Source: a virus
Length of the DNA stretch: 46,880 nucleotides
Direction: 5' to 3' (one strand)
Virus record (IMG/VR): IMGVR_UViG_3300018890_000005
Coordinates: 1-46,880 of that record
Below the pieces are notes generated by a model that worked only from the letters and a program-made list of their open reading frames with translations, was not told the DNA's origin and searched no databases. Both the position numbers and the translations under genes were made by a program. Of the stretch, positions 3,855 through 40,783 are shown piece after piece (the stretch's first letter is position 1; the number at the start of each line of letters is the position of its first letter).

Positions 3855-4396
3855 TCTTCGCCCTCGTCTCCAGGCTCAGGCAGGGCCTGCACGTCGAGGA
3901 TGCGTCGGGAGACGGCGTGGAGGCGCTCGATGACCACATCGACGGATGCCTCCGGAGTCTCCGGGGCGATCGCCGGCACACCCATGCCCGCCTGAGGCCC
4001 ATAGCGCGCAGGAGAGGCCTTGGACAGCCACCATGTCGCCGCCCTCAGGCGGACAGCCGGCTCGATCAGAGGGTCCGTGGCGAGCTTCTGCACGATGGCC
4101 AGCATGCCCAGCTCCGCCCGACTCTCGGCGGCCACGACCTCCCCAGCAAAGTAGGCGTGCTCATTCATCGGGGGCGAGCTCACCCCCTGGCGTTCGCAGG
4201 CGTCGATGTGGCGCAGTCTGGTGAGACCCAGGGATAGCCAGCGGTCCGCCACGGGGCCCGGCACACCAGCAAGCTCGCACGCCAGCGCGAAGCGGGCCCC
4301 CGACTCGATGTGACTGATGATCTGCTGCTGCACCGGCGTGGTCAGGGTGCGCTCCCGCTTATGGGCGTCGACGTCGCGTCTGACCTTGCGTGCCAT
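3851..4396 (-). CDS. terS: Terminase small subunit
   Basis: This 181-residue protein likely recognises phage DNA and recruits the large subunit. The N-terminus is basic (MARKVRRD), followed by a helical HTH-like segment (QQQIISHIESGARFALACEL, then AGVPGPVADRW) in which successive helices resemble the DNA-binding region of small terminases. A central helical part (about 75-130) could be the oligomerisation region, and the C-terminal tail is acidic (EPGDEGEE), as is common where the partner subunit binds. Its place directly before terL with an ATGA overlap supports the call. The start ATG at 4396 abuts the stop of the preceding glycine-rich tail gene (4397). Confidence 0.85.
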   Translation of the reverse strand: MARKVRRDVDAHKRERTLTTPVQQQIISHIESGARFALACELAGVPGPVADRWLSLGLTRLRHIDACERQGVSSPPMNEHAYFAGEVVAAESRAELGMLAIVQKLATDPLIEPAVRLRAATWWLSKASPARYGPQAGMGVPAIAPETPEASVDVVIERLHAVSRRILDVQALPEPGDEGEE

Positions 4397-25363: not shown

Positions 25364-25729
25364 TTATCGCTGGTGCGTCTCAGCGACGGCGCGGGACAAT
25401 TCGTCGAGCGCCTTGTCGAGGTCACGTGCCGCGCGGCGGCGGTCGGCATCGGAGGCATCGTCGGCCCCTGCCCCTCCGGGTCCTACCATGCTGGCTCGCT
25501 CAACTGCCTTGCGCGCGCGTTCGAGCAGGACCTCAAGAATCGGCGAGGCCGCGGCGGCTCCGAGGCAAGCGGCACGGCTAGCCGCGCCGCCCTCGGTGGC
25601 ACACCTGACGACCGTGCGCGCATCGACACGGCTGAGGACGTCGACCAGGCCGGGCGCGAAGGTGGAGCCGTCGCAGCCCGAAACCATCCACAAAACACAC
25701 AGAACTGGGGTTGTGTGGATTTTGTGCAT
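25364..25729 (-). CDS. Predicted lipoprotein, possible outer spanin
   Basis: This 121-residue protein starts with a short hydrophobic segment ending in a lipobox, MVSGC (residues 15-19), so the mature protein would begin at Cys19. The rest is helical and Ala/Arg-rich (EVLLERARKAVERASM, ADRRRAARDLDKALDELSRAVA). The gene begins four bases after the stop of a two-span membrane protein, an arrangement often seen for holin or inner-spanin/outer-spanin pairs. Asp follows the Cys, which in enterobacteria favours the inner membrane, so the spanin idea is tentative. A further Cys at 11 lies in the signal segment. Confidence 0.55.
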   Translation of the reverse strand: MHKIHTTPVLCVLWMVSGCDGSTFAPGLVDVLSRVDARTVVRCATEGGAASRAACLGAAAASPILEVLLERARKAVERASMVGPGGAGADDASDADRRRAARDLDKALDELSRAVAETHQR

Positions 25730-26679: not shown

Positions 26680-26894
26680 CGTGACCCCAAAGCGGCCGAA
26701 TGGGCGCGGGCCATTTTGAACCAGTGGGCTGCCAACTCACGCTGCTGCCCCACCATGACGGCAAGGTGGGCGGCACTGCGTTCGTCACGATTACCTGCAG
26801 CTTTGCACAGTGCGAGAGTTTCCCGAGCGATTGTGGCGCGGCGGGCGTGATATCGAGCGGTGTCCATCGCGAGTTTTTTGAGGTCGGTCAGCAT
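26676..26894 (-). CDS. Small basic helical protein, first gene after an early-type promoter
   Basis: This 72-residue protein is helical and rich in Ala, Arg, His and Lys (MLTDLKKLAMDTARYHARRA, SAAHLAVMVGQQRELAAHWF). It starts at 26894, seven bases after the -10 box of a promoter of the repeated early family, so its mRNA would be leaderless. Its stop overlaps the next ATG (26679). I do not recognise it. A DNA- or RNA-binding role is possible from charge, nothing more. Confidence 0.62.
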   Translation of the reverse strand: MLTDLKKLAMDTARYHARRATIARETLALCKAAGNRDERSAAHLAVMVGQQRELAAHWFKMARAHSAALGSR

Positions 26895-26900
26895 GGATAT

Positions 26901-26929
26901 TAGATAGGTGCCTATCGTGCGGTGCGCAA
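26901..26929 (-). promoter_or_regulatory. Early-family leaderless promoter, copy 1
   Basis: On the minus strand: TTGCGC (26929-26924), the conserved core ACCGCACGATAGGCAC, then TATCTA (26906-26901), spacer 17, and six bases to the ATG at 26894. The core is shared with copies at 28.7, 29.4, 29.7, 30.6, 35.8 and 36.3 kb. Confidence 0.72.
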
Positions 26930-26961
26930 GGGTGACGCGAAAATAATCGACACGGGAAACG

Positions 26962-26991
26962 AAAAACCCGAGCCAGCGGTTGCTGCTCGGG
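26962..26991 (-). terminator. Rho-independent terminator
   Basis: Read on the minus strand, CCCGAGC (26991-26985) pairs with GCTCGGG (26973-26967) around an 11-base loop and is followed at once by five T (26966-26962). It lies just after the stop of the 27020-27238 gene and before the promoter of the next transcript, so it separates the two units. Confidence 0.8.
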
Positions 26992-27019
26992 CCTGGCGGC
27001 GACGTGAATAGGTAGTGCG

Positions 27020-27238
27020 TTACAGGCGCGAAAACTCGAACATCTTGCGCGGCTCTCGCGGAGGAGCGGAGAGGTCGCGTCCGTGCAGAATCGCGAGACG
27101 CAGTAGCTTCATTTGCGCGCCTAGATTATGCAGTTTAGCGCGCTGCCAGTTGGTGAGGCTCGCCAGCTCAACAGGGGCGAGCAGGATATCCTTGTCGGCC
27201 TGGCGCAGGGGAGTGTGAGGGCGGCGTGTCTGTTTCAT
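27020..27238 (-). CDS. Small early protein, tandem paralogue of its upstream neighbour
   Basis: I use the ATG at 27238, which overlaps the upstream stop (ATGA), giving 72 residues. The end of the protein, WQRAKLHNLGAQMKLLRLAI with LHGR, aligns with FTRAKIHGVNAQINGLKLAI with FHAK in the upstream gene, so the two arose by duplication. The N-terminus is basic (MKQTRRPHTPLRQ). A terminator follows about 30 bases after the stop. Function is unknown. Confidence 0.68.
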   Translation of the reverse strand: MKQTRRPHTPLRQADKDILLAPVELASLTNWQRAKLHNLGAQMKLLRLAILHGRDLSAPPREPRKMFEFSRL

Positions 27239-27528
27239 CGGTGTTTCGCGTGGAAGATGGCCAGTTTGAGGCCGTTGATCTGTGCATTTACGCCGTGGAT
27301 TTTCGCGCGCGTAAATGCTGGCATCGCCGCGGCAAGCTGGTCGACGCCGATGAGGTCCGTGGCCAGGCGGTCGAGGGCGCCCGCTTCCCACCGAGCCGCG
27401 ATGGTAGGCGTGCTGTAGCCGGTGCGGCGAGCCACGATGCGGGCGTGCACTGCCGCGGCGGCGAGGTGGGCCGCGCGGGCAGCAGCGGCGGTGTCGGTCA
27501 TCTCAGCGGTGGGGAGTTGCGTCGTCAT
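27235..27528 (-). CDS. Small early protein, paralogue of its downstream neighbour
   Basis: This 97-residue protein has an Ala-rich start (MTTQLPTAEMTDTAAAARAA), a helix-turn-helix-like middle (RIVARRTGYSTPTIAARW) and the C-terminal motif RAKIHGVNAQINGLKLAIFH shared with the next gene. The start is the ATG at 27528, preceded by a second-class promoter whose -10-like GATATA lies six bases away, so a leaderless mRNA is likely. No function is recognised; DNA binding is a guess from the middle segment. Confidence 0.65.
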   Translation of the reverse strand: MTTQLPTAEMTDTAAAARAAHLAAAAVHARIVARRTGYSTPTIAARWEAGALDRLATDLIGVDQLAAAMPAFTRAKIHGVNAQINGLKLAIFHAKHR

Positions 27529-27667
27529 GACACGTATATCGGCACGGGTCGGAAATGCTTTAGGCGATTATTTCGGCTGAAAGGAGGGGGCGAGGGTGCG
27601 CACCTAGCAGGTTCTTGCGGGGTGTAGGTACGCTCCCCCCCTCGCACCCTTCTCTCAGCCCTTACTC
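27529..27667. other. Intergenic stretch with promoter and a weak inverted repeat
   Basis: These 139 bases hold the class B promoter of the 27235-27528 gene (27535-27563). They also hold an eight-base inverted repeat, AGGGTGCG (27593-27600) against CGCACCCT (27643-27650), embedded in G- and C-runs. Without a T-run this is not a convincing terminator. I see no gene. Confidence 0.4.
27535..27563 (-). promoter_or_regulatory. Class B early promoter, copy 1
   Basis: On the minus strand: CTAAAG (27563-27558), 17 bases that include TTTCC, then GATATA (27540-27535) and six bases to the ATG at 27528. The same CCTAAAG...TTTCC...CCGAT pattern stands before the gene at 27988. Confidence 0.5.
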
Positions 27668-27988
27668 TCAGTCCCCCAGCGACGTGCGAGAGAACTGCAC
27701 AATCCACTTGCCGTCCTCTACCCGCCAGGCGGAGGGCTCGGATTTGAGCGCAGGGCCGATGTAGCTGTACTCCAGAGCCTTGAGGCCGCTGCGGGTAGCC
27801 CAGGTCGCCAGCCATTTCGCTGCCCGCTCCGCCTGCTCGCCGGTCACAACCCATCCGGAGTAATTCGCCCAGTCGCTGGTCGCGACGCCAAGCTCGACGG
27901 CGGCGGCGGATGGGCTGCACCCGCACTTGCGCATGGCGGCGACAAGGGCGAGGCGGGCGGTCTCGAGGTTTTCGGTGGCGGCGTTCAT
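27668..27988 (-). CDS. Small HTH-like early protein
   Basis: I choose the ATG at 27988 (106 residues) because it lies seven bases after a -10-like box shared with the neighbouring gene; the frame stays open farther upstream. Residues about 15-45 (ALVAAMRKCGCSPSAAAVEL then GVATSDWANYSG) look like a helix-turn-helix. The C-terminal part is beta-like with AWRVEDGKWIVQFSR. It could be a small regulator of the early region. No partner or operator can be named. Confidence 0.6.
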   Translation of the reverse strand: MNAATENLETARLALVAAMRKCGCSPSAAAVELGVATSDWANYSGWVVTGEQAERAAKWLATWATRSGLKALEYSYIGPALKSEPSAWRVEDGKWIVQFSRTSLGD

Positions 27989-27995
27989 AACTTGT

Positions 27996-28024
27996 ATCAT
28001 CGGTGCGACGCGGGAAACCTTTAG
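27996..28024 (-). promoter_or_regulatory. Class B early promoter, copy 2
   Basis: On the minus strand: CTAAAG (28024-28019), 17 bases with TTTCCC, then GATGAT (28001-27996), and seven bases to the ATG at 27988. A one-base-shifted box, TGATAC, is also possible. The box overlaps the end of the lipoprotein gene region (stop at 28026). Confidence 0.42.
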
Positions 28025-28025
28025 G

Positions 28026-28472
28026 TCATCCCGGACAATTTGTTGCCCAGCTGTTGGCGGCATTTTGGAGGTCTTCCCACTCTTCGTACGTCAGCTGCTC
28101 ACCGTAGCAATTGGGACACATGAGCGGACCCTCGATGTCCGACAGGTCGGCAGGGTTTTCGACGTGGCGCAGGTTATGCGCGTGGGCGATTTCATGTGCG
28201 ATCGCCTTGGGGATCGGCTTCACGCTGATCTCCCTGCGGCACCCCTTGCTCGGGTGCGTGATGCCCTCAATGCCACCCTCCATCTCCGCATCCATCGGCA
28301 CCAGGTTGACCCGGATGGACTGCCGTGAGTTGCCCGCCCGGCACTCGACCCCGAGGATATCGCAGGCCTCCTCGACCTCGGCAGGTAGCTCGCGGCTACC
28401 CGTGTTCAGCTCGATGGCCTGGTCCTCGCAGCCGACCAGGAGCAGGGCGAGGATGGTGAGTAGCGCCTTCAT
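28026..28472 (-). CDS. Lipoprotein with a metzincin-type zinc protease motif
   Basis: This 148-residue protein begins with a textbook lipoprotein signal, MKALLTILALLLVGC (Cys15). After Cys comes Glu, which allows outer-membrane sorting in Gram-negatives. Near residue 104 it has HEIAHAHNLRH, matching HExxHxxGxxH of metzincins except Asn in place of Gly. GPLMCPNCYG some 22 residues later could supply the Met-turn. Several extra Cys (EACD, VECRA, KGCRR, PNCYG, TNCPG) suggest disulfides in the periplasm or outside. A strong AGGAGG site stands before the ATG. A surface or periplasmic peptidase acting on the host or on competing phages is inference. Confidence 0.75.
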   Translation of the reverse strand: MKALLTILALLLVGCEDQAIELNTGSRELPAEVEEACDILGVECRAGNSRQSIRVNLVPMDAEMEGGIEGITHPSKGCRREISVKPIPKAIAHEIAHAHNLRHVENPADLSDIEGPLMCPNCYGEQLTYEEWEDLQNAANSWATNCPG

Positions 28473-28504
28473 GTTTCCTCCTATCGGCCAACGGCCCGGG
28501 GCCT

Positions 28505-28690
28505 TTAGCGGTTCCTCAACGCGTCGTAGAGCTCGCCGGCCATGCGATCGAACGCTCCGGCCCCTAGGACGTGGTCAAACGCCGTGCGCTCGTCCATGCC
28601 GCTGCGGAGTGCCAGGAGGATACGGGCCGAGATCAGGGCGTTGATGGCGGTGCGGTCGGCGGGAGTGCGGGCGGTCTCGGTGGCGGTCAT
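28505..28690 (-). CDS. Small early protein
   Basis: This 61-residue protein (start MTATETARTPADRTAINALI) is helical, with ARILLALRSGMDERTAFDHV and a C-terminal LYDALRNR. It begins seven bases after the -10 box of an early-family promoter. Its first dozen residues resemble those of the genes at 29374 and 29731 (Thr/Ala-rich with an Ala-Asp). It heads a short operon with the metzincin lipoprotein. Function unknown. Confidence 0.62.
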   Translation of the reverse strand: MTATETARTPADRTAINALISARILLALRSGMDERTAFDHVLGAGAFDRMAGELYDALRNR

Positions 28691-28696
28691 GATTTA

Positions 28697-28724
28697 TATA
28701 TAGTGCCGATCGTGCGGTGCGCAA
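28697..28724 (-). promoter_or_regulatory. Early-family leaderless promoter, copy 2
   Basis: On the minus strand: TTGCGC (28724-28719), core ACCGCACGATCGGCAC, then TATATA (28702-28697), spacer 16, and six bases to the ATG at 28690. This is the cleanest copy and may be close to the ancestral form. Confidence 0.78.
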
Positions 28725-28736
28725 GAGGTCGACAGA

Positions 28737-29186
28737 TTATTTTGCGATCAGCTTCAGCGCCCGCGCCTCTGCCCTGCGCGCCTTGCGGATCGCCCGGGTG
28801 TAGGCCCTCGAGCACGTCACACAGCGGCGCGCCTTGGGGTTGCTGGGGAGGTAGTAGCTATTCTCCGGCGTGTATTCGTGTCCGTACTTGCAGTGCGTCA
28901 CAGGCACGCGGCGCTCTTTGAGGCAGACCAGGAGTCCTGCGCGGACGGTCTGCCCTGGCTGAGCCATGGCGAGGTGGGCCGGGTTCACGCACCGCTTGTT
29001 GCGGCAGGTGCGGTAGATCTGCACACCGGGCGCGATGAGCCCGTGCTCGCGCTCCCACACCAGGCGGTAAGGCACCTGGGCGTGCAGCCACAGGTGACAG
29101 TCCCCGCAGGGGTCCGGCATTACGTGGTCCTCGAACTGGCCGGGCCACTGGTAGCGCAGGCACTGACTCAGCGGGCGGGCGGTCAT
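28737..29186 (-). CDS. HNH-family protein with a degenerate first His
   Basis: This 149-residue protein has the layout of phage HNH endonucleases with two zinc ribbons: CGDCHLWLHAQVPYRLVWE, then YRTCRNKRCVNPAHLAMAQ, and a C-terminal CKYGHEYTPENSYY...RRCVTCSR module. In active relatives the central block starts with His-x-Cys; here it is Arg-Thr-Cys, so the usual catalytic His is missing while Asn and the later His (NPAHL) remain. It may be an inactive or altered DNA-binding relative. It overlaps the small gene upstream by one base (TGATG at 29188-29184). Confidence 0.78.
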   Translation of the reverse strand: MTARPLSQCLRYQWPGQFEDHVMPDPCGDCHLWLHAQVPYRLVWEREHGLIAPGVQIYRTCRNKRCVNPAHLAMAQPGQTVRAGLLVCLKERRVPVTHCKYGHEYTPENSYYLPSNPKARRCVTCSRAYTRAIRKARRAEARALKLIAK

Positions 29187-29374
29187 CAGGTGTACCAGGC
29201 CCCTTCCTGACGCTGGTAGGCGGCGTAGAGCTCTGCCTCAGTCCTCGCGGGAATCCGCGCGTACCAGAGGCTGTGGCCATCTTCCTCGTCTTTGTAGGCC
29301 AGCTCGCCGAAGATCTCGACGACGCGGAGGTTGGAGATATCGAGGTCGGCAGCGGCAGTGTTCGTGTCGGTCAT
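29186..29374 (-). CDS. Small early protein
   Basis: This 62-residue acidic protein (start MTDTNTAAADLDISNLRVVE) ends with YARIPARTEAELYAAYQRQE and aromatic residues. It begins seven bases after the -10 box of an early-family promoter. Its N-terminal Thr/Ala-rich stretch matches that of the next gene at 29731 in protein and DNA (ACGAACACTGCCGC against ACGAACACCGCCGC), suggesting a duplicated promoter-plus-leader cassette. No function is recognised. Confidence 0.6.
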   Translation of the reverse strand: MTDTNTAAADLDISNLRVVEIFGELAYKDEEDGHSLWYARIPARTEAELYAAYQRQEGAWYT

Positions 29375-29380
29375 GACTTA

Positions 29381-29409
29381 TCTATACGTGCCAGAGGTGT
29401 GGTGTGCAA
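29381..29409 (-). promoter_or_regulatory. Early-family leaderless promoter, copy 3
   Basis: On the minus strand: TTGCAC (29409-29404), core ACCACACCTCTGGCAC, then TATAGA (29386-29381), spacer 17, and six bases to the ATG at 29374. Upstream, TCTGTCGATATCACT (15 bases) is identical to the flank of copy 4. Confidence 0.72.
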
Positions 29410-29434
29410 GTGATATCGACAGACAATGCGACGA

Positions 29435-29731
29435 TCACAGCGCGGTCCAGACTGCTTTGAGGTCGCGGCGGGCGGTGTTCGTCATCTCGCCGCAAACGTC
29501 GCACAGGACGCCGTCCGCTGTGGCGCTGACATACACGCGGAAGTAGGCGTCGCCCTTCACGCCCTGGTACTTGACGTACACGCGCACTTCGCGGGGATTC
29601 TCGCGCGGCTCCCACACCTTGGCGCTCCGAAACTTGGCGGCCAGCAGGCCCGCGAAGTGGCGGCAGTCCTCGATCGTGTAGGGCAGCTCGTCGGCAGGGG
29701 TCTCGGCGGCGGTGTTCGTCGTGGCGTCCAT
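29435..29731 (-). CDS. Small early protein with a CxxC pair
   Basis: This 98-residue protein starts MDATTNTAAETPADELPY, has a helical IEDCRHFAGLLAAKFRSAKV, strands EVRVYVKYQGVKGDAYFRVYV and a C-terminal VLCDVCGEMTNTARR with one Cys-x2-Cys. With the Cys at about 27 it could bind zinc, but a full ribbon is not present. Preceded by an early-family promoter, with the ATG seven bases after the -10 box. Function unknown. Confidence 0.62.
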   Translation of the reverse strand: MDATTNTAAETPADELPYTIEDCRHFAGLLAAKFRSAKVWEPRENPREVRVYVKYQGVKGDAYFRVYVSATADGVLCDVCGEMTNTARRDLKAVWTAL

Positions 29732-29737
29732 GCATCT

Positions 29738-29765
29738 ATCATAGTGCTGGACGTGCGGTGTGCAA
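29738..29765 (-). promoter_or_regulatory. Early-family leaderless promoter, copy 4
   Basis: On the minus strand: TTGCAC (29765-29760), core ACCGCACGTCCAGCAC, then TATGAT (29743-29738), spacer 16, and six bases to the ATG at 29731. It shares 15 bases of upstream flank with copy 3. Confidence 0.74.
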
Positions 29766-29784
29766 GTGATATCGACAGATCATT

Positions 29785-30543
29785 TCACCAGCGCCTTGGC
29801 ACCTTATTGGTCCACGGTCGGCGCTTGTGCCGGAATCCGCCTTTGCCCTCACGAACCGCGTTGATCACGTACCAGGCCTCGGCGTAGCGCCACTCCCGCG
29901 AAGGCGCGCGCATGCGCTTATACCAGGCCGCCCATTTCCGCCCCTCTCGTGCGATCGGGCTGGTTGCCTCCCGCTGCGCATCAAACTCGGCCTGTATACG
30001 CCGCGCCTCTGCGAGCTGCGGATCCTCGGGGTCGACGCTGGCATCCTCCGGCGGCTCGTCAGGGACGCCCTCTTCTCGCGTGTCCCAGTACGCCCACTGC
30101 GGGACGTCGGCTCCGTTGCCGGTCGTCGTGTCGTAGGCACTGCACCATGGCGGCGGAGGTGCGCTGCGATAGCGCCGCTTGACGAGCCCCTCGGCGGCTA
30201 GGCGTCGGAAGATGGCATCGAGGCGCTCAGCGGCGCCTGGCCAGCCGTTTCGCGCAAGGTGGTCGCCGAGCTCCTGCGCGTGGATGGACCAGCGAAAAAA
30301 ATCGCACCCGTGCCAGGACACCCCATCGCGGCCGCCGCTGCAAATGTAGTCACGGATGATGTCGAGCGGCTGGCGGCGGGTGTCGTCAGGGCGCTTGGCT
30401 GCACGCTCGAGCCGGTCGAGCTCGGCATACTGGCTGTCGAGCCAGGCCTGGCGATGAGCGGCAGCTTTGGCGACAAGGGTACTCACCTCGGATGCGATGT
30501 CGCTGGCCAGCGGAAGCTCGACCTGCCTGGGACCCTTGGGCAT
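29785..30543 (-). CDS. Unrecognised early protein
   Basis: This 252-residue protein has charged helical ends: AKAAAHRQAWLDSQYAELDR near the start and YKRMRAPSREWRYAEAWYVI near the end. In between lies a block with HAQELGDHLARNGW and AAERLDAIFRRLAAEGLVKRR, which resembles a winged-helix (HTH plus wing YRSAPPPPW). That suggests DNA binding, perhaps a regulator or replication accessory. It starts seven bases after the -10 box of promoter copy 5. I cannot name a family. Confidence 0.62.
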   Translation of the reverse strand: MPKGPRQVELPLASDIASEVSTLVAKAAAHRQAWLDSQYAELDRLERAAKRPDDTRRQPLDIIRDYICSGGRDGVSWHGCDFFRWSIHAQELGDHLARNGWPGAAERLDAIFRRLAAEGLVKRRYRSAPPPPWCSAYDTTTGNGADVPQWAYWDTREEGVPDEPPEDASVDPEDPQLAEARRIQAEFDAQREATSPIAREGRKWAAWYKRMRAPSREWRYAEAWYVINAVREGKGGFRHKRRPWTNKVPRRW

Positions 30544-30549
30544 CTACCG

Positions 30550-30578
30550 TCTATAGTGCTAGACGGTGCGGTGCGCTA
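30550..30578 (-). promoter_or_regulatory. Early-family leaderless promoter, copy 5
   Basis: On the minus strand: TAGCGC (30578-30573, a weak -35), core ACCGCACCGTCTAGCAC, then TATAGA (30555-30550), spacer 17, and six bases to the ATG at 30543. It overlaps the stop of the upstream gene at 30576. Confidence 0.62.
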
Positions 30579-30905
30579 GCCCTGTACGTAGCAGGCCGAC
30601 CCGCCGACCTGCGTCGGGCCCGCAAATTCCAGGGTCACGGCCCCCGCATCGCCCTCCCCGGCAAGCGGCCCGAACGTGTATTGCGCATCGGCGGCCACGC
30701 TGATCGGTCCCACGACCGGCGCTCCACCGATGAGCAGTGTCAGCGTCCCTGCCCCATCGGGAACCAGGTCGATCGACCACACTATCGTCTTCGTCCCAGC
30801 CCGCGGGGCAGGGACCAGGACCGACCCGGAGACCGTCACGTTGACCGCCAACGTCCGCGCGAATCCGGGCCTGCGATTGGCGGATAGAAAGGCCGATGCG
30901 TCCAT
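30576..30905 (-). CDS. Small beta-rich protein, accessory virion-like cluster
   Basis: This 109-residue protein is mostly strands: ARTLAVNVTVSGSVLVPAPR, KTIVWSIDLVPDGAGTLTLL, GGAPVVGPISV and VTLEFAGPTQVGG. It looks like a small beta-sandwich or fibre knob and not a regulator. It closes a four-gene run with the 21-residue repeat protein and two other structural-looking proteins. I infer a virion or surface role. No family is recognised. Confidence 0.6.
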   Translation of the reverse strand: MDASAFLSANRRPGFARTLAVNVTVSGSVLVPAPRAGTKTIVWSIDLVPDGAGTLTLLIGGAPVVGPISVAADAQYTFGPLAGEGDAGAVTLEFAGPTQVGGSACYVQG

Positions 30906-30919
30906 AGCGCAACCCTACC

Positions 30920-32458
30920 TCACCGGCGATGTCGACGGGCGCGGAATGACCGCACCAATGACGACTCCGCACCGCGCCGCGGCGGCGACGTCACTGCGTC
31001 GAGATTCCCCGCGACTGTGCCGGTGACCTGCACCGCCCCGTGCGACTCCCCAGCCGCATCACCGAGGCCGGCCCCGGCGGACCCCGCCACCCGCACGCCG
31101 GCCGTCCCGACTCCCATCGCAGCGTCAAGTACAGAGGCCCCCTGCCCCGCCACAGAAACGTCCGCTTCCGTCACTGCAATCGCCTGCCCAAGGGTCGCCG
31201 ACACCGCGGCGTGGTCGGGCACGTCGACCTCAGAGGTCGACGAGGCGGCGCCCAGGGTGGCAGAGAGAGTGCCCCGGCTCGCAACATCCACCTCGCCCGC
31301 CGACGTCGCAGGGCTCAACGTGGCACCCCCTGCCGCGCGGACCGAGACGTCTGCCTCCGCCGTCACAGAGGCAGCTCCGAGGGTCACAGAGGCGGCTCCC
31401 GCCGCCACCACATCGACATCCGCCGTCACCGATGCATCGCCGAGGATCGCGGATAGCCCGGCCCGCTGGGCGACGTCGACCTCCGAAGATACGCCCGCGG
31501 CTCCTAGCGTGGACGCCACTGCACCGCGGCTCTCGACGCCGGCTTGGGCTGCCGCAGACGCAGGGGCGAGCGTGGTAGAGACTGACGCACTCGCTGGCCC
31601 CGCGCCTAGGGTCACTGTCGACGCCGCAGTCGCTGCGTCTAGAGGCCGTGAAACACTGCCCAGCACCGCGACGTCAACGTCCCCCGCCGCCGTAGTCTCG
31701 CCCAGGACGGTCGAGAATGAGGCTGTCACGGGGACGTCTGCCTCCGAGGTCGCAGTCGCGGGGCCCAGCGTCGTGGAGAGCGAGCCACGGGTGGCGACGT
31801 CAGACTCCGCCGAGGCCGTCGCGGGACCGAGCGTCGCAGTTGTGGCCCCCCGGACCAGTGCGTCCGTCTCCGCCGTGGCAGCTGCTGCCCCAAGCGTCGA
31901 GGCTGCTGTGGCACGGGTCGCGACGTCGACCTCCGAGACTGCGGTCGCCTGCCCGAGAGTGGCGGAGACCGTACCTGCCGTCGCCACGTTGGCCGCGGAG
32001 GACGATGTCGCAGCCCCCAGGGCGGCCGATACATTCCCCCGCGCGGCGACGTTCGCCGTCGAGGCCACGCCGGCCTGCCCCAGAGTCGAGGAGGCGGTCC
32101 CCGTAGCAATGACGGTCGCCGTGGAGCTTACGGTCGCTGGCGCCAGCGTGGCCGACACCGAGGCCGACACTGGGGTCGACCCGACGCTCCCCGCCGACGT
32201 GGCAGTCGCAGTCCCGAGGGTCGCAGAGGCGGTCCCTCGGACTGGCACGGTGGCCGTACCTGCCGCAGTCGCGCTGCCCAAGGTGGCGGACGCGGTGCCC
32301 TGGGTCGCCACCTGGCCTGAGACGGCAGCCACAGCCGCCTCGAGGGACGACACGACGACACCAGCGCGCCCGGTCGGCTCATCGAGCCACTCCCCCCGCA
32401 GGAGCAGTAGCCGGGGCCTCGTCGTCGTCCCTAGGGGGTAGGCGCGAGCGAGCGCCAT
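30920..32458 (-). CDS. Protein of about twenty 21-residue tandem repeats
   Basis: This 512-residue protein has a short unique start (MALARAYPLGTTTRPRLLLL, then GEWLDEP) and, from about residue 54 to 485, some 20 copies of a 21-residue repeat: consensus G-x-x-S-A-T-L-G-x-A-T-x-x-S-E-x-D-V-x-x-R. Most copies have exactly 21 residues; three run slightly longer or shorter. Each could give two short strands, as in a beta-solenoid or stacked beta fibre. The C-terminus is basic (FRARRHRR). Ala, Thr, Ser, Val and Gly dominate and there is no Cys. Between structural-looking genes, it is probably a virion fibre or capsid decoration. I know of no named family. Confidence 0.75.
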   Translation of the reverse strand: MALARAYPLGTTTRPRLLLLRGEWLDEPTGRAGVVVSSLEAAVAAVSGQVATQGTASATLGSATAAGTATVPVRGTASATLGTATATSAGSVGSTPVSASVSATLAPATVSSTATVIATGTASSTLGQAGVASTANVAARGNVSAALGAATSSSAANVATAGTVSATLGQATAVSEVDVATRATAASTLGAAAATAETDALVRGATTATLGPATASAESDVATRGSLSTTLGPATATSEADVPVTASFSTVLGETTAAGDVDVAVLGSVSRPLDAATAASTVTLGAGPASASVSTTLAPASAAAQAGVESRGAVASTLGAAGVSSEVDVAQRAGLSAILGDASVTADVDVVAAGAASVTLGAASVTAEADVSVRAAGGATLSPATSAGEVDVASRGTLSATLGAASSTSEVDVPDHAAVSATLGQAIAVTEADVSVAGQGASVLDAAMGVGTAGVRVAGSAGAGLGDAAGESHGAVQVTGTVAGNLDAVTSPPRRGAESSLVRSFRARRHRR

Positions 32459-32459
32459 G

Positions 32460-33287
32460 TCACCCCTGCGCGATGTTGACCGACCCCTGCAGGTTGCCGG
32501 TGGTCGTGCCTATGCACAGGACCATCATGGCGATGCAGGCGTCATCGTAGATGCGGGGTTTGCCGATCGTGAAGGCGTCGAACAGCTGAGCGACATTCGA
32601 GGCTGTCAACGGGACCTCCACGATCCTCCGCAGCAGGGTGATCCCCACGTCGCCGGCCAGCCCGGAGCTCGCGCTCGCGGTGAATGACGTCACCTGCCGA
32701 ATGCCCATCGTCGTCGCCGGGTTCGCGCCTCCGGGGACCAGGGGCGCCATCTGGCCGATCGACTCCGTAGTGTTCGGCTTTACGTATCGCCACGTCCGAC
32801 CCGTGTTGCCGGCCGCGTCCACCCCCGTGATGTCCCAGTTGCCCACGACGCTGCCCCCTGATGTGTACACCTCGAGCCACGGCTCGACGTCCGCTCCTGC
32901 GGTGGGGTCTCGACCCGCGGGTAGATTTCCCGGGGTAGTGACCGTCTGCGCGGTCGTGAGCGTCGTATTAAGACCGCTCGCCGCCCATAGGCGGTCGTAC
33001 AGGATGACCGTCCCCTGCGTCGTCCCGGCCATCGCAATGCGACCGAGGTACGACAGGGCAGGCGCTACAGGGTTGGTCAAGGTAATGGCCCCCGCGGTCG
33101 ATGCCGTGGGCACATAGCCACTGCCAGCCGAGATCAGCGGTGGGTTAGAGCCGGCGGCCGGCTGCCCAGCTGCCTTCCACATGCTGTGCCAGGTGCCCGC
33201 TCCCTTGCTCACCTGCGCAGCCTTGAAGATCCCTCTCCACTGCCCGGGGAGGGCGGCGACGAGGTCGTCCATGGTCGCAATGGCCAC
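32460..33287 (-). CDS. Virion-like structural protein
   Basis: This 275-residue protein starts MAIATMDDLVAALPGQWRGI, followed by GTWHSMWKAAGQPAAGSNPP, a block that I have seen in virion structural proteins of uncultured and contractile phages, then strands such as PALSYLGRIAMAGTTQGTVI, LYDRLW and WLEVYTSGG. The C-terminal IGKPRIYDDACIAMMVLCIG is hydrophobic but too mixed for a clear membrane span. It is followed after one base by the repeat protein. Surface or head-fibre base is inference. Confidence 0.6.
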   Translation of the reverse strand: MAIATMDDLVAALPGQWRGIFKAAQVSKGAGTWHSMWKAAGQPAAGSNPPLISAGSGYVPTASTAGAITLTNPVAPALSYLGRIAMAGTTQGTVILYDRLWAASGLNTTLTTAQTVTTPGNLPAGRDPTAGADVEPWLEVYTSGGSVVGNWDITGVDAAGNTGRTWRYVKPNTTESIGQMAPLVPGGANPATTMGIRQVTSFTASASSGLAGDVGITLLRRIVEVPLTASNVAQLFDAFTIGKPRIYDDACIAMMVLCIGTTTGNLQGSVNIAQG

Positions 33288-33694
33288 TACGCATTCCCGT
33301 CGGTCAGCGCGAATGTCGCGACCGTAACCTGCTGCCCCACCGCAATCGACAGGTTATCCAACTCCATCGACCCACCTCCGCCCGTCGCCGTGCAGTCTCC
33401 CTGCATGTGGCAGGTGGTACCGGCGGAGTCGTACAGGCGCCAGTGCCCGGCTGTCCCCGCGGCGTCACCCGCCAGGTCCTGCCAGGTCCCCGACTTCGCC
33501 TTGCTGCCGGACGCCGCATTGGCGGCCCAGTCCGACGGCAGGGTCATCGTGGCCAGAACCGTACCTGAATCTGCGGTCGCGCAGCTGGCCGGCATGGCAC
33601 CAGTGCGAATGCGCAGGATGGGGGCAGTCCCGATGGCGGTCTCGATTGCGTCAAGGCGGGCGTTGCGCACAGTGGCGGACATCTGGATTGGCAT
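33287..33694 (-). CDS. Small virion-like protein
   Basis: This 135-residue protein begins MPIQMSATVRNARLDAIETA, a typical start of small phage structural proteins, then GTAPILRIRTGAMPASCATA, ATMTLPSDWAANAASG, and strands ending GQQVTVATFALTDG. It overlaps the next gene by one base (33287). It may begin at 33694 or at an ATG at 33682. The upstream 33 bases carry a degenerate copy of the early promoter core (ACGGCACGATCGGC). Structural role inferred from pattern and neighbours. Confidence 0.6.
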   Translation of the reverse strand: MPIQMSATVRNARLDAIETAIGTAPILRIRTGAMPASCATADSGTVLATMTLPSDWAANAASGSKAKSGTWQDLAGDAAGTAGHWRLYDSAGTTCHMQGDCTATGGGGSMELDNLSIAVGQQVTVATFALTDGNA

Positions 33695-33727
33695 CGGAGC
33701 CGATCGTGCCGTCCGCGCCGTCCAGTG

Positions 33728-34054
33728 TCAAACGCCCTCGATCTTACGAATCACCGCCTCTAGCGCATCGTTGTACCCATCGTAGTAATCGTCGGAACTG
33801 TAGGGGTCGGCGGCACCGGCCAGCAGTCGCACCTCGTCGGCCAGTGCGGTCCGCCGGTCCTCGCACTCACACCTGGCGCAGGGGCCTTCGTGGCCCGCTT
33901 TCTTGCGACACCTCAGTTGGTCGTGAAAGTCGAGCGTCACCCAGCTGTCGGACACATCCTCGAGGCGATGCCGAATGCCGTCGATGCGGCTGACCAGGCT
34001 AGCCACAGACGCCTCGAGGAGGGTGATCCGGTCGCACAGATCAGCGTCGTGCAT
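33728..34054 (-). CDS. Small early protein with Cys/His cluster
   Basis: This 108-residue protein has a helical start (DLCDRITLLEASVASLVSRI), a Cys/His cluster CRKKAGHEGPCARCEC (about 49-64) that could bind zinc, and a C-terminal YYDGYNDALEAVIRKIEG. The last motif (Y-x-x-G-Y-x-D-A-L) recurs twice in the protein encoded at 34389-34862. It is the last gene of the run driven by the promoter at 35.8 kb. Function unknown. Confidence 0.6.
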   Translation of the reverse strand: MHDADLCDRITLLEASVASLVSRIDGIRHRLEDVSDSWVTLDFHDQLRCRKKAGHEGPCARCECEDRRTALADEVRLLAGAADPYSSDDYYDGYNDALEAVIRKIEGV

Positions 34055-34056
34055 CG

Positions 34057-34392
34057 TCAGACCTCGCTCCGGCTGTCCGCCTCGCCCTGCTCGAGTTCCT
34101 TCCTGATGCGGGCTAGGGCCGTATCGAATAGGTCTATGAACACGCCAGCGGGGTCCTTATTGAATACCGCGAAGCGGCACGCGGCGTACTGACCCTTCTC
34201 GTTCGGGTAGCTGCGCACCTCCCACTCTAAGCCTTGGAGGCGCACACCTACGCGGATGCTGTACCCGACGGGCAGGGCGCACATGCGCTGCAGGAGTTGA
34301 TAGCTCTGCGAGGTTTGCGTCGGCTGGCTAGGACCTCGCGTCTGGCGAACGTCTGCAGCGGTCCATCCGATTTTGTCGTCGTCGTCCATCAT
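34057..34392 (-). CDS. Unrecognised small early protein
   Basis: This 111-residue protein has an acidic start (MMDDDDKIGW), a centre of strands (GYSIRVGVRLQGLEWEVRSY, QYAACRFAVF) and a helical end (DLFDTALARIRKELEQGE). It overlaps the upstream gene by four bases (34392-34389) and ends two bases before the next start. It is likely co-translated with its neighbours. No family is recognised. Confidence 0.6.
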   Translation of the reverse strand: MMDDDDKIGWTAADVRQTRGPSQPTQTSQSYQLLQRMCALPVGYSIRVGVRLQGLEWEVRSYPNEKGQYAACRFAVFNKDPAGVFIDLFDTALARIRKELEQGEADSRSEV

Positions 34393-34862
34393 TTTGACTC
34401 TCCACAGGGTGAGGGGCTCGGGATTCGGCCAGTCTCAGCGGCGCCAAGTATGATATCGAGCGCATCGAGGTACCCCTCCTGATACGAGGTGCGTCGGGGG
34501 CGCGGCCAGACCTCGGAGCAGTCGGCGTAGTGCTGCTCGAGTATGATCAGCAACTGACTGCGGTTTTCCTCCACGCCCAGCGGCGGCATGTCATCGATGG
34601 GAAAGTTGACGTGCATAGGCGTGGTCACGATCGGCGGCATCCGCATGGTTCCCTCCTCTGCGGCCTTGATGGCTCTCTCCAGTGATTCGATGGCCACTCT
34701 GACGCCGGTCAGGTAGCCGGACCAAAAAGCATCGCGGGGGCGCGGATCGTTGCCTACCGCGTCGTGGTGGTGACGCAGGAACTCCAGAGATTTGGCGACA
34801 GAACTAGCCAGGCTGCGTTTCTCGGTGAGGCCAATTGTGACCGTAATTTCATCGTCGCTCAT
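34389..34862 (-). CDS. Small early protein with two GY-type repeats
   Basis: I choose the ATG at 34862 (157 residues) because it overlaps the preceding short membrane gene (ATGA); the frame stays open upstream without a better start. It carries two copies of a helical motif: DAFWSGYLTGVRVAIESLER and TSYQEGYLDALDIILGAAE. A related copy ends the protein at 33728-34054. Such self-similar helices may oligomerise. Otherwise it has DDEITVTIGLTEKRSLAS at the start. Function unknown. Confidence 0.62.
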   Translation of the reverse strand: MSDDEITVTIGLTEKRSLASSVAKSLEFLRHHHDAVGNDPRPRDAFWSGYLTGVRVAIESLERAIKAAEEGTMRMPPIVTTPMHVNFPIDDMPPLGVEENRSQLLIILEQHYADCSEVWPRPRRTSYQEGYLDALDIILGAAETGRIPSPSPCGESK

Positions 34863-34978
34863 GGCATATCTCCCGGGGGTATGAGCAGGTGCAGGGCGAC
34901 CGCCAGTCCGCCGACGATGAGCCATGCCAGGACGGTCAGAAGGATGAGGACGCGCCAGGTTTTCTCGCGGTCCGTCAT
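34859..34978 (-). CDS. 39-residue single-span membrane protein
   Basis: The start is the ATG at 34978; the longer frame starting at 35050 has a charged, unlikely N-terminus. The peptide is MTDREKTWRVLILLTVLAWL followed by IVGGLAVALHLLIPP: a charged start, one membrane span of about 22 residues, and a short end. Its stop overlaps the next ATG (34862-34859). Small membrane peptides of this kind are common in phage early regions. No function can be assigned. Confidence 0.55.
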   Translation of the reverse strand: MTDREKTWRVLILLTVLAWLIVGGLAVALHLLIPPGDMP

Positions 34979-35043
34979 AGGGCTGCCGTGACCCAATCCG
35001 TCAAGCCCATGGCGGCCCATGTGACAATGACGACGGCGACCAC
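34975..35043 (-). CDS. Possible 22-residue membrane micropeptide
   Basis: A GTG at 35043 opens a frame of 22 codons (VVAVVIVTWAAMGLTDWVTA...) that ends in TGA overlapping the next ATG (34978-34975). It lies right after the gene ending at 35051. The hydrophobic run and the ATGA coupling are like those of its neighbour, but the ribosome site is weak and the length tiny, so this may be chance. Confidence 0.28.
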   Translation of the reverse strand: MVAVVIVTWAAMGLTDWVTAAL

Positions 35044-35050
35044 TGCCCAC

Positions 35051-35395
35051 TTACTTACTGGCTCGAGCTCGTTTTTTCTTGTTGGCATTGGCTTTTTTCT
35101 CCTGCTCGTCGATCTTGCCCTCGGCGACGACCTCATCAGTCGCCGCCTCAATCATATGAGACACGATGTGCGAAGCGATGCTCCCGTCATCACTCCTCGG
35201 GACCGCGAATGCGCGGCCCCCCACATTTGCGTCGATGACCTCGATAGCGAGGCTGCACGGAAGGGACACAAGCCGCATCGACCAACCCTTAGGGAGGCGA
35301 AGGGCATACTCCCCGATTTCGCAGAGGCTCTTGCGGTCGATGTCGTCGGGCTGCGCAGGTTTGCGCGTGTTTCCTCGAGGTCGAATCGTTCTCAC
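35051..35395 (-). CDS. Unrecognised small basic early protein
   Basis: This 114-residue protein has a central strand part (LRLPKGWSMRLVSLPCSLAI, EVIDANVGGRAFAVP), a helix HIVSHMIEAATDEVVAEGK and a very basic end (KKANANKKKRARASK) that could bind nucleic acid. It overlaps the upstream gene by four bases (35395-35392). It belongs to the operon starting at the 35.8 kb promoter. No family is recognised. Confidence 0.6.
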   Translation of the reverse strand: MRTIRPRGNTRKPAQPDDIDRKSLCEIGEYALRLPKGWSMRLVSLPCSLAIEVIDANVGGRAFAVPRSDDGSIASHIVSHMIEAATDEVVAEGKIDEQEKKANANKKKRARASK

Positions 35396-35589
35396 GTGCC
35401 CTCCGCTGCGTCGCGCTCGGCATCGCGCAGGCGCCAGTACTCGCGCAGCAGGAGGTCCTCGATGCGGTAACGGATCTGCGTCGGCCAGTCCCCGTCAACG
35501 TGAACATCGAGGTGGCCGTCGCTGCGGTACACCTGCCCCGTCGCACTTGCTGGGATACCCCCGACCTCGAACTCAACATCAATGCGCAT
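35392..35589 (-). CDS. Unrecognised small early protein
   Basis: This 65-residue protein has a beta start (MRIDVEFEVGGIPASATG, HLDVHVDGDWPTQI) and a charged helical end (RIEDLLLREYWRLRDAERDA). It overlaps the previous gene by 11 bases and the next by four. The pattern suggests a small two-part fold. Function unknown. Confidence 0.58.
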   Translation of the reverse strand: MRIDVEFEVGGIPASATGQVYRSDGHLDVHVDGDWPTQIRYRIEDLLLREYWRLRDAERDAAEGT

Positions 35590-35806
35590 GACTCACCCCC
35601 TCATTGGCACAGCGCACTTGAGCGCGCTCGGCGAGCTGGGCCCGGTAGGCTCCCTCGAGCGTCGCCGCGACGATCATCTCGATGCGCTGGCGGGCGGCCT
35701 GGCTGACACTGCGTCCGCGGATGGCAACGGCAACAGCCTCGGCAGGGGTCAGGCCGCGCAGGGCGGCTGCGATCGCGGCGGTCGTGATGTTTGCTTGGGC
35801 TCTCAT
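35579..35806 (-). CDS. Small helical early protein, first gene after promoter copy 6
   Basis: This 75-residue protein is almost wholly helical and Ala-rich (NITTAAIAAALRGLTPAEAV, GRSVSQAARQRIEMIVAATL, RAQLAERAQVR). It begins eight bases after the -10 box TACAAT of the early-family promoter at 35814-35841. It leads a run of about eight small genes down to 33.7 kb. Function unknown. Confidence 0.62.
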   Translation of the reverse strand: MRAQANITTAAIAAALRGLTPAEAVAVAIRGRSVSQAARQRIEMIVAATLEGAYRAQLAERAQVRCANEGVSHAH

Positions 35807-35813
35807 GATTTTG

Positions 35814-35841
35814 ATTGTAGTGCTAGACGTGCGGTGTGCAA
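35814..35841 (-). promoter_or_regulatory. Early-family leaderless promoter, copy 6
   Basis: On the minus strand: TTGCAC (35841-35836), core ACCGCACGTCTAGCAC, then TACAAT (35819-35814), spacer 16, and seven bases to the ATG at 35806. Confidence 0.76.
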
Positions 35842-35848
35842 GTGGGAA

Positions 35849-36325
35849 TTAGCAGGCGATCACCTTTTTCCCCTTTGGGCCGTCTTGAGCACGGGCCCAG
35901 GCGGCGAGGATTTCGGCTGCGCGGGTCGAGGGGTGGGGGCCCAGGGCGGTGCGAGTGGAGGTCGACACGTAGATGTTCAGCCTGGTCTTAGGGTCTCCCG
36001 CCGGGGCCGGGGCTTGGTGCGTGTGGCTGACGACGAGGTCCGGAGGGCCTTTCCCGCAGTCGGGGCAGGGGGTCGCTAGGGGGCTGACCGCGCCGCGCTT
36101 GCCCGTCCACCCGCAGGACTGACAGCGGACCGTCCGCCTCGGGGGCTCGGGCTCGCGGCCGCTGACCAGCCGGCGGGCCCAGGTCGGGGACTTGCCGAGG
36201 GCCTCAGCGACGCGCTGGTAGGACCAGTCTCGGGAGCGCAGGCGCAGGGCGACTGCCTCGCGGTCACCCCCCAACTCAGCTAGCAGGGACGCGGCGACTG
36301 CCTTGTCGGATTTCTCTCGGGCCAT
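35849..36325 (-). CDS. HTH plus zinc-ribbon regulator-like protein
   Basis: This 158-residue protein has an HTH segment (AVALRLRSRDWSYQRVAEAL, then GKSPTWARRLVSG, about 24-56), a four-Cys zinc ribbon (CQSCGW and CPDCGKG, about 68-93) and a C-terminal strand-helix part (RLNIYVSTSTRTALG, RAAEILAAWARAQ) that could be a ribbon-helix-helix-like module. The order is the same as in the protein at 36368-37288. It starts eight bases after the -10 box of promoter copy 7. It may bind the repeated early promoters, but this is a guess. Confidence 0.68.
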   Translation of the reverse strand: MAREKSDKAVAASLLAELGGDREAVALRLRSRDWSYQRVAEALGKSPTWARRLVSGREPEPPRRTVRCQSCGWTGKRGAVSPLATPCPDCGKGPPDLVVSHTHQAPAPAGDPKTRLNIYVSTSTRTALGPHPSTRAAEILAAWARAQDGPKGKKVIAC

Positions 36326-36332
36326 CCTAGCC

Positions 36333-36360
36333 CTAATAGCACCAATCGTGCGGTGCGTGT
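36333..36360 (-). promoter_or_regulatory. Early-family promoter, copy 7 (weak -35)
   Basis: On the minus strand: core ACCGCACGATTGGTGC followed by TATTAG (36338-36333) and seven bases to the ATG at 36325. The -35 position reads ACACGC, so sigma recognition may be weak or need an activator. Confidence 0.55.
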
Positions 36361-36367
36361 ACGCGGA

Positions 36368-37288
36368 TTAGCGATGGCGGCGCTGATCGTCCTGGCCGTC
36401 CTGCGGTTGGGCCGGGGGCTGGACTTGAGGCGCGCTCGGGCCGCGCTGGGGGGCCTGCTGTTGCTGCTGGCGACGGGGGTCGTCCACGCGGGGGTTGGCC
36501 GGGGCGGCTGGCGTGGGGCCGGTCACCGGAGGTGGCTGCACCTGGCCGGGCACTGGGTCGCTCCATGCTGCGTCACCAGGCTTGGGAGGGCCAGGGTTGG
36601 GCTGGTTCGGCTCGCGGCCGTCTTTAGGGTCGGTGGTCTCGGGCATGCCGATAGCCTGCGACGGGGTCGGCGGCGGGGTCAAATGGCGGATGTGAGCTGA
36701 CGCGCCAAACGCTGTATCGTAACCATCTTCGCTGGGTAAAGTGTGCTTTTTGCATTCGTGGGGCTCCCGAATCGGCGGGTCCCAGCCGGCGGGGATCTGC
36801 AGCCCCTGCGCCCACCGGTCGAGGACGGCCCCTGCGATTGCGCCCCGGACCGACAGACAGCCCGCAACACCCTCGTCTGCCGTGCGCAGCAGGGCGTCAG
36901 TCTCCGGCAGGACATACACCCGGAGACAGACGAGCCGATCGACACCCCGACGTTCCGCCAGCGTTGCAACCCGGCGAGGCCTGCCTGACGGGTGCATCCT
37001 GGCGCCACAGCGGTAGCAGGGTCGCAGCGTGGCTGTGGGGCGGATTCTCTGCGTACGCCAGCCACAGCGCCCGCAGATGACGACGATGTCTCCCGGCTCC
37101 GGCGGCGTCAGCTGTCGGACCAGGGCTTCCGGAGTCGTCTCCCAATGCTTGGCGATCCGCGTCAGTGGCCACCGATAGCGGTCCCGTAGCATCAGGATCG
37201 CCTCGAGGTCCGAGGAGGTCGCCTGGCGCACCCTGGCGACCAAACGCTCGTCTCGCACCCACTGAGGGTCCCTAACGCGCTTCGGCAC
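36368..37288 (-). CDS. HTH plus zinc-ribbon protein with long disordered tail
   Basis: This 306-residue protein starts with GTG at 37288 and overlaps the upstream gene by 17 bases. Residues about 28-63 form an HTH-like helical region (ILMLRDRYRWPLTRIAKHWE, TTPEALVRQL), followed by a zinc ribbon CGRCGWR...CYRCGARM (about 72-98), then DRLVCLRVYVLPETDALLRT and AGAVLDRWAQG, matching the 36.3 kb protein. The last 110 residues are Pro, Gln and Asp-rich with a Gln run (QQQQQ), probably disordered. The architecture suggests a DNA-binding regulator. Target unknown. Confidence 0.66.
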   Translation of the reverse strand: MPKRVRDPQWVRDERLVARVRQATSSDLEAILMLRDRYRWPLTRIAKHWETTPEALVRQLTPPEPGDIVVICGRCGWRTQRIRPTATLRPCYRCGARMHPSGRPRRVATLAERRGVDRLVCLRVYVLPETDALLRTADEGVAGCLSVRGAIAGAVLDRWAQGLQIPAGWDPPIREPHECKKHTLPSEDGYDTAFGASAHIRHLTPPPTPSQAIGMPETTDPKDGREPNQPNPGPPKPGDAAWSDPVPGQVQPPPVTGPTPAAPANPRVDDPRRQQQQQAPQRGPSAPQVQPPAQPQDGQDDQRRHR

Positions 37289-40449: not shown

Positions 40450-40455
40450 GGCCCC

Positions 40456-40497
40456 GTTGTAACGCCCCTTGACTTCTGCGTCAAGGCCTATTACAAG
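40456..40497. promoter_or_regulatory. Interlocked divergent promoters with a TTGAC/GTCAA inverted repeat
   Basis: Minus strand: TTGACG (40484-40479), 17 bases, TACAAC (40461-40456), then six bases to the ERF ATG. Plus strand: TTGACT (40469-40474), 17 bases, TACAAG (40492-40497), four bases to the ATG at 40502. The two -35 boxes are the arms of TTGAC-TTCTGC-GTCAA (40469-40484), so RNA polymerase cannot occupy both at once and a single dimeric regulator could control both operons. Confidence 0.72.
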
Positions 40498-40501
40498 CCG
40501 A

Positions 40502-40783
40502 ATGGTGATGGCTCAGATGGACGACCCAGACATCTCCGATTGGATTCGCGAGTCCGAAGTGGCCCGCATGCTCGGCTTGGCGAGGGCGACCCTCAGGATG
40601 CGCAGAAAAGTGAAAGGTCAGCTACCCCCCTATTACCTTCTCGGCGGGAACAGCGTGTTCTACAGGCGTAGCGAGGTCCTGGCATGGATCGACGCGCGCA
40701 GAAAGGAGACCGACCCGGACCAGAAGACACTTCCGCGCACAGCGCACAAGCCGGCGTCAAAAAAACGGCGAGGTGGCAGGTGA
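40502..40783 (+). CDS. Excisionase-type HTH DNA-binding protein
   Basis: This 93-residue protein starts at the ATG at 40502 (others at 40508 and 40517 possible), only four bases after the -10 box. Residues about 14-60 are an HTH_17/MerR-type domain: WIRESEVARMLGLARATLRM, RRKVKGQLPPYYLLGGNSVF and YRRSEVLAWIDARR, with the expected HTH, wing and last helix. The C-terminus is basic (KPASKKRRGGR). First gene of the replication operon, it may regulate the divergent promoters or act with replication proteins. The portal's C-terminus has the same fold type. Confidence 0.78.
   Translation: MVMAQMDDPDISDWIRESEVARMLGLARATLRMRRKVKGQLPPYYLLGGNSVFYRRSEVLAWIDARRKETDPDQKTLPRTAHKPASKKRRGGR

Follow-up and report, generated by a model that had tools for sequence, protein, structure and literature searches.

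Seven copies of one putative promoter class, with predicted leaderless starts, in an uncultured contractile-tailed phage

Seven repeated elements in a phage genome

We analysed a stretch of 46,880 nucleotides, comprising IMG/VR virus record IMGVR_UViG_3300018890_000005 (hereafter, the window). Our subject is a set of seven near-identical minus-strand elements, named class A. These stand before the gene starts at positions 26894, 28690, 29374, 29731, 30543, 35806 and 36325, and nowhere else in the genome. Each points towards its gene. An earlier sequence-only reading had placed the same element before these seven starts, and all seven were located there. The window is a circularly closed unit of ~46.7 kb, the two ends of which share a 193-bp overlap with an interruption, and has a GC content of 66-67%. 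Protein families (portal, large terminase subunit (TerL), tail sheath, tape measure, baseplate, major capsid protein (MCP) and protease) identify a contractile-tailed phage. Further families are ERF, a DnaB-like helicase, a primase, an exonuclease, a RusA-like resolvase and a DNA methylase. No integrase was seen among the window proteins scanned, the window has no tRNA genes, and no DNA-level match was found in the phage collection. WhiB, an actinobacterial marker, is absent from the six records examined. Hence, there is no such marker for host assignment.

The features are listed in Table 1. Each class A copy has a -35 hexamer, a core (ACCGCACGNNNNGCAC) inside the spacer, and a -10 box. In all seven copies the first base of the -35 element is 34-35 nt from the ATG, the core ends 12-13 nt from it, and 6-7 nt separate the -10 box from the ATG, the last of these being a distance already given by the sequence-only reading. 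The same reading called the -35 element 'usually TTGCRC'. This applies to five of the seven; the exceptions are 30543 (TAGCGC) and 36325 (ACACGC). The core deviates at 29374, at 30543 (one extra base), and at 36325 (GTGC end). Four core positions vary freely and the rest are fixed; the copies, separated by as much as 9.4 kb, precede unrelated genes. The core is asymmetric, and no convincing palindrome or direct repeat was found in it (best palindrome score 0.5 over 6 pairs). It is also better conserved than the -10 box, where the sixth base, T (T6), is missing in five copies and present in two. Three neighbours (28690, 29374 and 29731) additionally have a common upstream TCTGTCGA and similar first codons. 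At copy 5, the TAG that stops the upstream gene also forms the first bases of the -35 element. Just before copy 1 is a strong, intrinsic terminator-like hairpin with a T-run (26963..26994, minus strand). This is beyond the loop limit of the terminator scan and was recognised by folding.

Table 1. Putative promoters and candidate regulator genes in the window
Feature	Position	Strand	Description
Class A copy 1	26895..26929	-	TTGCGC..GCAC, -10 TATCTA, 6 nt to ATG 26894
Class A copy 2	28691..28724	-	-10 TATATA, 6 nt to ATG 28690
Class A copy 3	29375..29409	-	most divergent core ACCACACC, -10 TATAGA, 6 nt to ATG 29374
Class A copy 4	29732..29765	-	-10 TATGAT, 6 nt to ATG 29731
Class A copy 5	30544..30578	-	-10 TATAGA, 6 nt to ATG 30543; spacer longer by one base
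Class A copy 6	35807..35841	-	-10 TACAAT, 7 nt to ATG 35806
Class A copy 7	36326..36360	-	weakest -35 (ACACGC), -10 TATTAG, 7 nt to ATG 36325, before HTH-zinc-ribbon gene
Class B promoter	27529..27568	-	CCTAAAG..TTTCCG..CCGATATAC before ATG 27528; by eye
Class B promoter	27989..28028	-	CCTAAAG..TTTCCCG..CCGATGATAC before ATG 27988; by eye
ERF promoter	40450..40484	-	TTGACG-17-TACAAC-6-ATG
Divergent promoter	40469..40501	+	TTGACT..TATTAC-7-ATG, start 40502
158-aa helix-turn-helix (HTH) + zinc-ribbon protein	35849..36325	-	behind class A copy 7; candidate regulator
Paralogous HTH + zinc-ribbon protein	36368..37258	-	directly upstream of the 158-aa gene, start uncertain; second candidate regulator

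Class A sites occur only at gene starts

A motif search of the 46.7-kb unit, proposed with the original prediction of the element, found class A sites only at the seven starts. Allowing up to three mismatches, TTGCRCACCGCACGNNNNGCAC has five matches where 0.25 are expected, and none of 100 shuffles reached five. A weight matrix recovers six of the seven sites with scores of 22-34 bits. The next-best site scores 11.2 bits, and scores in 60 random genomes peaked at 21.4. Recovery of the 30543 site requires that a one-base gap be allowed. In leave-one-out scans, six sites rank 1-6 and the site at 36325 ranks 9th. Note that, for ~1.5% of minus-strand positions, an ATG that opens at least 60 codons lies at one of the two offsets. 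Arithmetic from this background puts the chance of all seven sites having an ATG at the offset at ~1e-13. The core is not as frequent at random positions as before gene starts. A consensus promoter scan of the window gave no matches, because that scan demands T6 of the -10 element.

Translation starts and other promoters of the phage

At six class A starts there is no Shine-Dalgarno match of three or more bases. The seventh start has a match of three bases, and none has four or more. Among structural genes, 25 of 28 have at least three matching bases and 15 of 28 at least four. That only 15 reach four bases weakens the earlier description of late genes as having clear AGGAG sites. We compiled a set of putative leaderless genes, consisting of the seven class A genes, two class B genes, ERF and the gene at 40502. 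Their first 48 nt are rich in A+C (0.62 compared with 0.51; p = 5e-5 by permutation). Folding is also weaker over the first 40 nt (-4.7 compared with -8.7 kcal/mol, p = 0.001). The A+C enrichment is not clearly repeated in G001, a relative described below (0.57 compared with 0.55), and so is not a general signature. A peak of TANNNT, 6-7 nt before starts, is present in the window (p = 1e-3). This test used gene calls that give -10 boxes no credit.

Class B has two copies only, both spotted by eye. The ERF promoter, predicted to combine the same 6-base spacing with a different core, is arranged as described and has a consensus-like sequence. Its -35 element forms a palindrome with that of the divergent promoter, which precedes a gene for an HTH_17/AlpA-like protein (protein-family match). 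The same geometry between -10 element and start is thus found at four independent promoters of this phage: ERF, 40502, 27528 and 27988. Separately, a very stable 90-nt hairpin (-52 kcal/mol; 27571..27660, minus strand) lies between the genes 27668 and 27528, which are two leaderless-type units.

Relatives keep the spacing but not the core

Searching for relatives with TerL or MCP as single proteins was unsuccessful; alignments with G001 (IMGVR_UViG_3300027831_000001, 68 kb) were successful. Of the called window genes, 27 have homologues in this record at E <=0.01, in the same structural block, with identities of 41% (TerL), 33% (MCP) and 34% (sheath). G003 (IMGVR_UViG_3300037478_000342, 49.8 kb) matches 30 window genes in a translated search (MCP 41%, protease 40%). 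The TANNNT peak 6-7 nt before starts recurs in G001 (p = 1e-27), G003 (p = 8e-8) and G004 (p = 4e-6), and is absent in most other loci compared. Leaderless-type starts are few in the freshwater actinophage DSL-LC01 and in Thermus phage P23-45, and number none or one in phiC31 and a Brevundimonas phage. GTA-like Rhodobacterales terminase relatives were set aside; they have only the terminase in common with the window and no leaderless peak.

The class A core itself was not found elsewhere. At up to three mismatches, it shows no excess over a reversed control in G002-G006; it was not found in G003 by this mismatch search, nor in G001, where pattern searches gave other promoter families instead. 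Scanning IMG/VR with the 22-bp element returned four loci; on inspection of their sequence none had an ATG at the expected distance, and these were taken as chance. G001 and G003, both distant relatives lacking the core, keep the same geometry with quite different promoters. In G001 there are three such families with the same spacing: CGGTTGAC..TA (9 starts), GTGCTA (27 occurrences, of which 21 precede a start) and TAGSCT (17 starts; TAGSCTC has 18 occurrences in total). All 47 of these starts open frames of at least 40 codons, yet so do 65% of all ATG and GTG codons in G001, so this count is weak alone. At the ERF and HTH_17 genes, the starts are of leaderless type in the window and in G001 alike, although the promoter sequences differ. 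We conclude that the geometry appears common to the clade, and the promoter cores lineage-specific. This argues that leaderless starts would be a property of host and clade, and the core a separate regulatory layer.

The TAGSCT sites (class L) of G001 have a further peculiarity. At 10 or more of the 17 (L182-L185), the TAG stop of the preceding gene supplies the first three bases of the -10-like box, which lies 6-7 nt before the next start. Examples are at 9509, 9968, 20984, 23373 and 38535. The copies at 4196, 18009 and 66545 resemble operon heads, with no same-strand gene directly upstream. In other GC-rich phage contigs (L339, L325/L326), several starts are preceded at 6-7 nt by TAGCTT or TAGCCT (p = 1e-8 to 6e-5).

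Candidate regulators

A common regulator of the class A promoters is plausible, because the core is better conserved than the -10 box. The best candidates are the two adjacent HTH-zinc-ribbon paralogues; that either binds the core is a guess. The two proteins are 34% identical over 88 aa (E 2e-6), and the product of 36368-37258 has a long proline/glutamine-rich tail. The HTH of the 158-aa protein gives weak Pfam and sigma-region-4-like matches. Foldseek returned nothing at E <0.14 for this protein, and only HTH and rubredoxin-like zinc-ribbon resemblances. A third homologue is encoded by G003 (profile E 9e-7), in a gene run headed by TTGACA-17-TAGGCT-6-ATG. No repressor of known family was seen among the window proteins scanned.

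Sigma regions 2 and 4 (PF04542, PF04545) have no match in the window. They do have matches in G001 (49262-50572, equivalent to L184:9262-10572; both regions) and in G008, the record of L325 (24164-24361; region 2), each a sigma-70-type protein. T7-type RNA polymerase (PF00940) was not matched in the window, in a weak search that was silent in all control genomes too. The longest open reading frame listed in the window is 671 aa, which argues against a single-subunit RNA polymerase. Thus, of the proposal that one regulator or sigma form reads the core, the regulator is plausible, but the search for a phage sigma factor found none in the genome.

Comparison with known systems

Stoperators of cluster A mycobacteriophages are numerous asymmetric sites, oriented with transcription, that serve a known repressor. 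Class A sites are similarly asymmetric, and in one orientation relative to transcription. However, stoperators are independent of start codons, whereas all seven class A sites are a fixed 12-13 nt from an ATG.

The extended start-associated sequences (ESAS) of cluster K mycobacteriophages are promoters, with seven copies in Adephagia (PMC11373665); in the K4 phage Yasnaya_Polyana, three of seven ESAS repeats end on the start codon (PMC12699233). Like class A, they are seven dispersed, intergenic copies of one long sequence that is conserved and includes SigA-like hexamers (in ESAS, with a separation of 17-18 bp), each before a gene. The class A hexamers are weak. ESAS differ in containing 15-17-bp inverted repeats, for which class A has no counterpart. 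In most cluster K phages, ESAS are followed by the start-associated sequence (SAS; GGGATAGGAGCCC) and then the start codon. The 13-bp SAS is start-linked (PMC3203893) and suspected of acting in RNA or near the ribosome; it precedes no class A start. Unlike ESAS, class A has an asymmetric core inside the spacer and all seven copies are placed for leaderless RNA.

In Actinobacteria and Deinococcus, leaderless genes that have TANNNT ~6-7 bp ahead of the start codon are an established class (Zheng et al. 2011, PMC3160421; for Deinococcus-Thermus, PMC12340547). Class A resembles these in that the -10 element ends 6-7 bp before the start codon (7/7), with no ribosome site. In those bacteria the arrangement is a general property of the host and the promoters vary, whereas class A repeats a single phage promoter that has its own specific core and often lacks T6. 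Phage Corndog (cluster O) has predicted leaderless SigA promoters, PL1, PR2 and PL2 (PMC4351075). In both Corndog and the window, +1 is predicted at the first base of the start codon, and a divergent pair is included (compare ERF/40502). Corndog, by contrast, has few, single promoters without a common core, and its 17-bp repeats are palindromic and mostly off promoters. Repeated promoters (ESAS), leaderless phage promoters (Corndog) and -10-adjacent reading frames are already known separately. Class A would be an exceptionally clear example, extending across the phage, of a mechanism that certain bacteria and phages are known to use. One repeated promoter joining leaderless geometry to an asymmetric spacer core, and the leaderless family sets of the relatives, are apparently new to us, judging from the open-access literature.

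Interpretation

We think it likely that the seven elements represent a single class of phage promoter, with leaderless starts and a phage regulator that reads the core. Host RNA polymerase holoenzyme would recognise the weak -35 element (TTGCRC) and the TA-rich -10 element, 16-17 nt apart, and RNA would begin at the A of the start codon or at the base preceding it. The asymmetric, nearly invariant core in the spacer would not be needed by sigma alone. The likeliest reader of this core is a DNA-binding protein encoded by the phage, which would switch all seven small-gene units in concert. The best candidate would be the HTH-zinc-ribbon protein whose gene lies behind copy 7, or else the paralogue in tandem with it. 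Since the -35/-10 geometry puts the predicted +1 at or beside the A of the ATG, leaderless mRNA is the best reading of class A, and a well supported one. The sequence-only reading had predicted leaderless transcripts, and the repeated and unique copies, the fixed geometry, the lack of Shine-Dalgarno matches, the composition of the 5' coding ends, the terminator-like hairpin before copy 1, the independent promoters of like geometry in this phage, and relatives that keep the spacing with differing promoter sequence all favour this. The transcription start, use of host polymerase, the regulator and its sign, and the timing of class A units are what we infer. Expression may be early, as that reading had it; note that the promoter at 26894 also heads a gene run leading into head genes.

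Several points weigh against this interpretation. The leaderless starts and the use of host polymerase are predictions from DNA sequence, and the link from the core to any protein is a guess. Judged by the usual rule, the -10 boxes are poor, and the RNA could therefore begin a few bases off the predicted position. In its strict form, the TANNNT test is modest for the window (4 starts compared with 0.45 expected). The element at 36325 is a weak member of the class, and that at 30543 fits only with its one-base gap. Finally, no homologue of the class A element was found in any other phage, so cross-genome conservation is not usable as evidence.

Quite possible, though short of probable, is that these are ordinary host promoters and the core an operator. 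A phage repressor would bind it to shut off the seven units, in lysogeny or late infection, as at asymmetric stoperators or cluster K ESAS repeats, and the leaderless geometry would be a host habit. This accords with a core that is asymmetric and conserved above the hexamers, with geometry lacking the core in relatives, and with nearby HTH proteins, one behind a class A copy. However, with neither an integrase nor a known-family repressor among the proteins scanned, lysogeny is unsupported, and the weakness of both hexamers fits an activated promoter at least equally. We consider it unlikely that a phage polymerase or sigma factor reads the whole 26-bp block, in the manner of T7-type promoters or phage sigma factors. 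Nearly the entire block is conserved, and sigma-70-type proteins occur in G001 and G008, but the genome yielded no sigma region 2 or 4, no T7-type polymerase (by the weak search above) and no listed frame beyond 671 aa. A T7-like reading of CACTATAG at 30543 was rejected, as no polymerase was found. A very diverged or helper factor behind the block is possible.

The tight tie to start codons, recalling the start-bound SAS (PMC3203893), might instead indicate an element working in RNA or near the ribosome, with true promoters further upstream. We regard this as improbable: the -35/-10 spacing is preserved, there is no anti-Shine-Dalgarno complementarity, copy 1 directly follows a terminator-like hairpin, and unrelated promoters with consensus TTGACN -35 elements have the same spacing. 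Least probable, in our estimation, is recent duplication of a promoter cassette, spread by recombination without functional constraint. The shared TCTGTCGA and similar first codons at 28690, 29374 and 29731 would suit duplication. Elsewhere, similarity ends at the element, and the pattern of four variable core positions among fixed ones, in distant copies before unrelated genes, also speaks against it.

If class A is a regulated leaderless promoter class, a wider scheme can be proposed, tentatively, since it may well prove wrong. This uncultured contractile-tailed clade might keep whole regulons, perhaps each temporal class, under their own leaderless promoter family, with their own core and phage factor (HTH-zinc-ribbon here, a sigma factor in G001), so separating transcription and ribosome loading from those of Shine-Dalgarno genes. 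Dispersed phage regulons would then be readable from DNA alone, via the distance from -10 element to start codon, and starts of phage genes in such hosts could be annotated correctly. The clade would be a natural test of the balance between leaderless and Shine-Dalgarno translation in infected cells, and the core would give direct access to a new phage regulator.

Other features of the window

Upstream of class A copy 5, among possible fibre genes, positions 30920-32458 encode a 512-aa protein with many degenerate repeats (A/SATLGxAT..xxxDVA) and no family match. A 152-aa protein (256-714) has a 52% match to a G001 protein (L183:16831-18537). The match covers the N-terminal part of the latter, which is AAA_33 kinase-like and is fused there to a Mu F-like head domain. 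Lastly, an imperfect inverted repeat, CACAAAATCCACACA..TGTGTGTTTTGTG, at 25688-25726, stands directly before the ATG at 25687 and is a possible operator or terminator.

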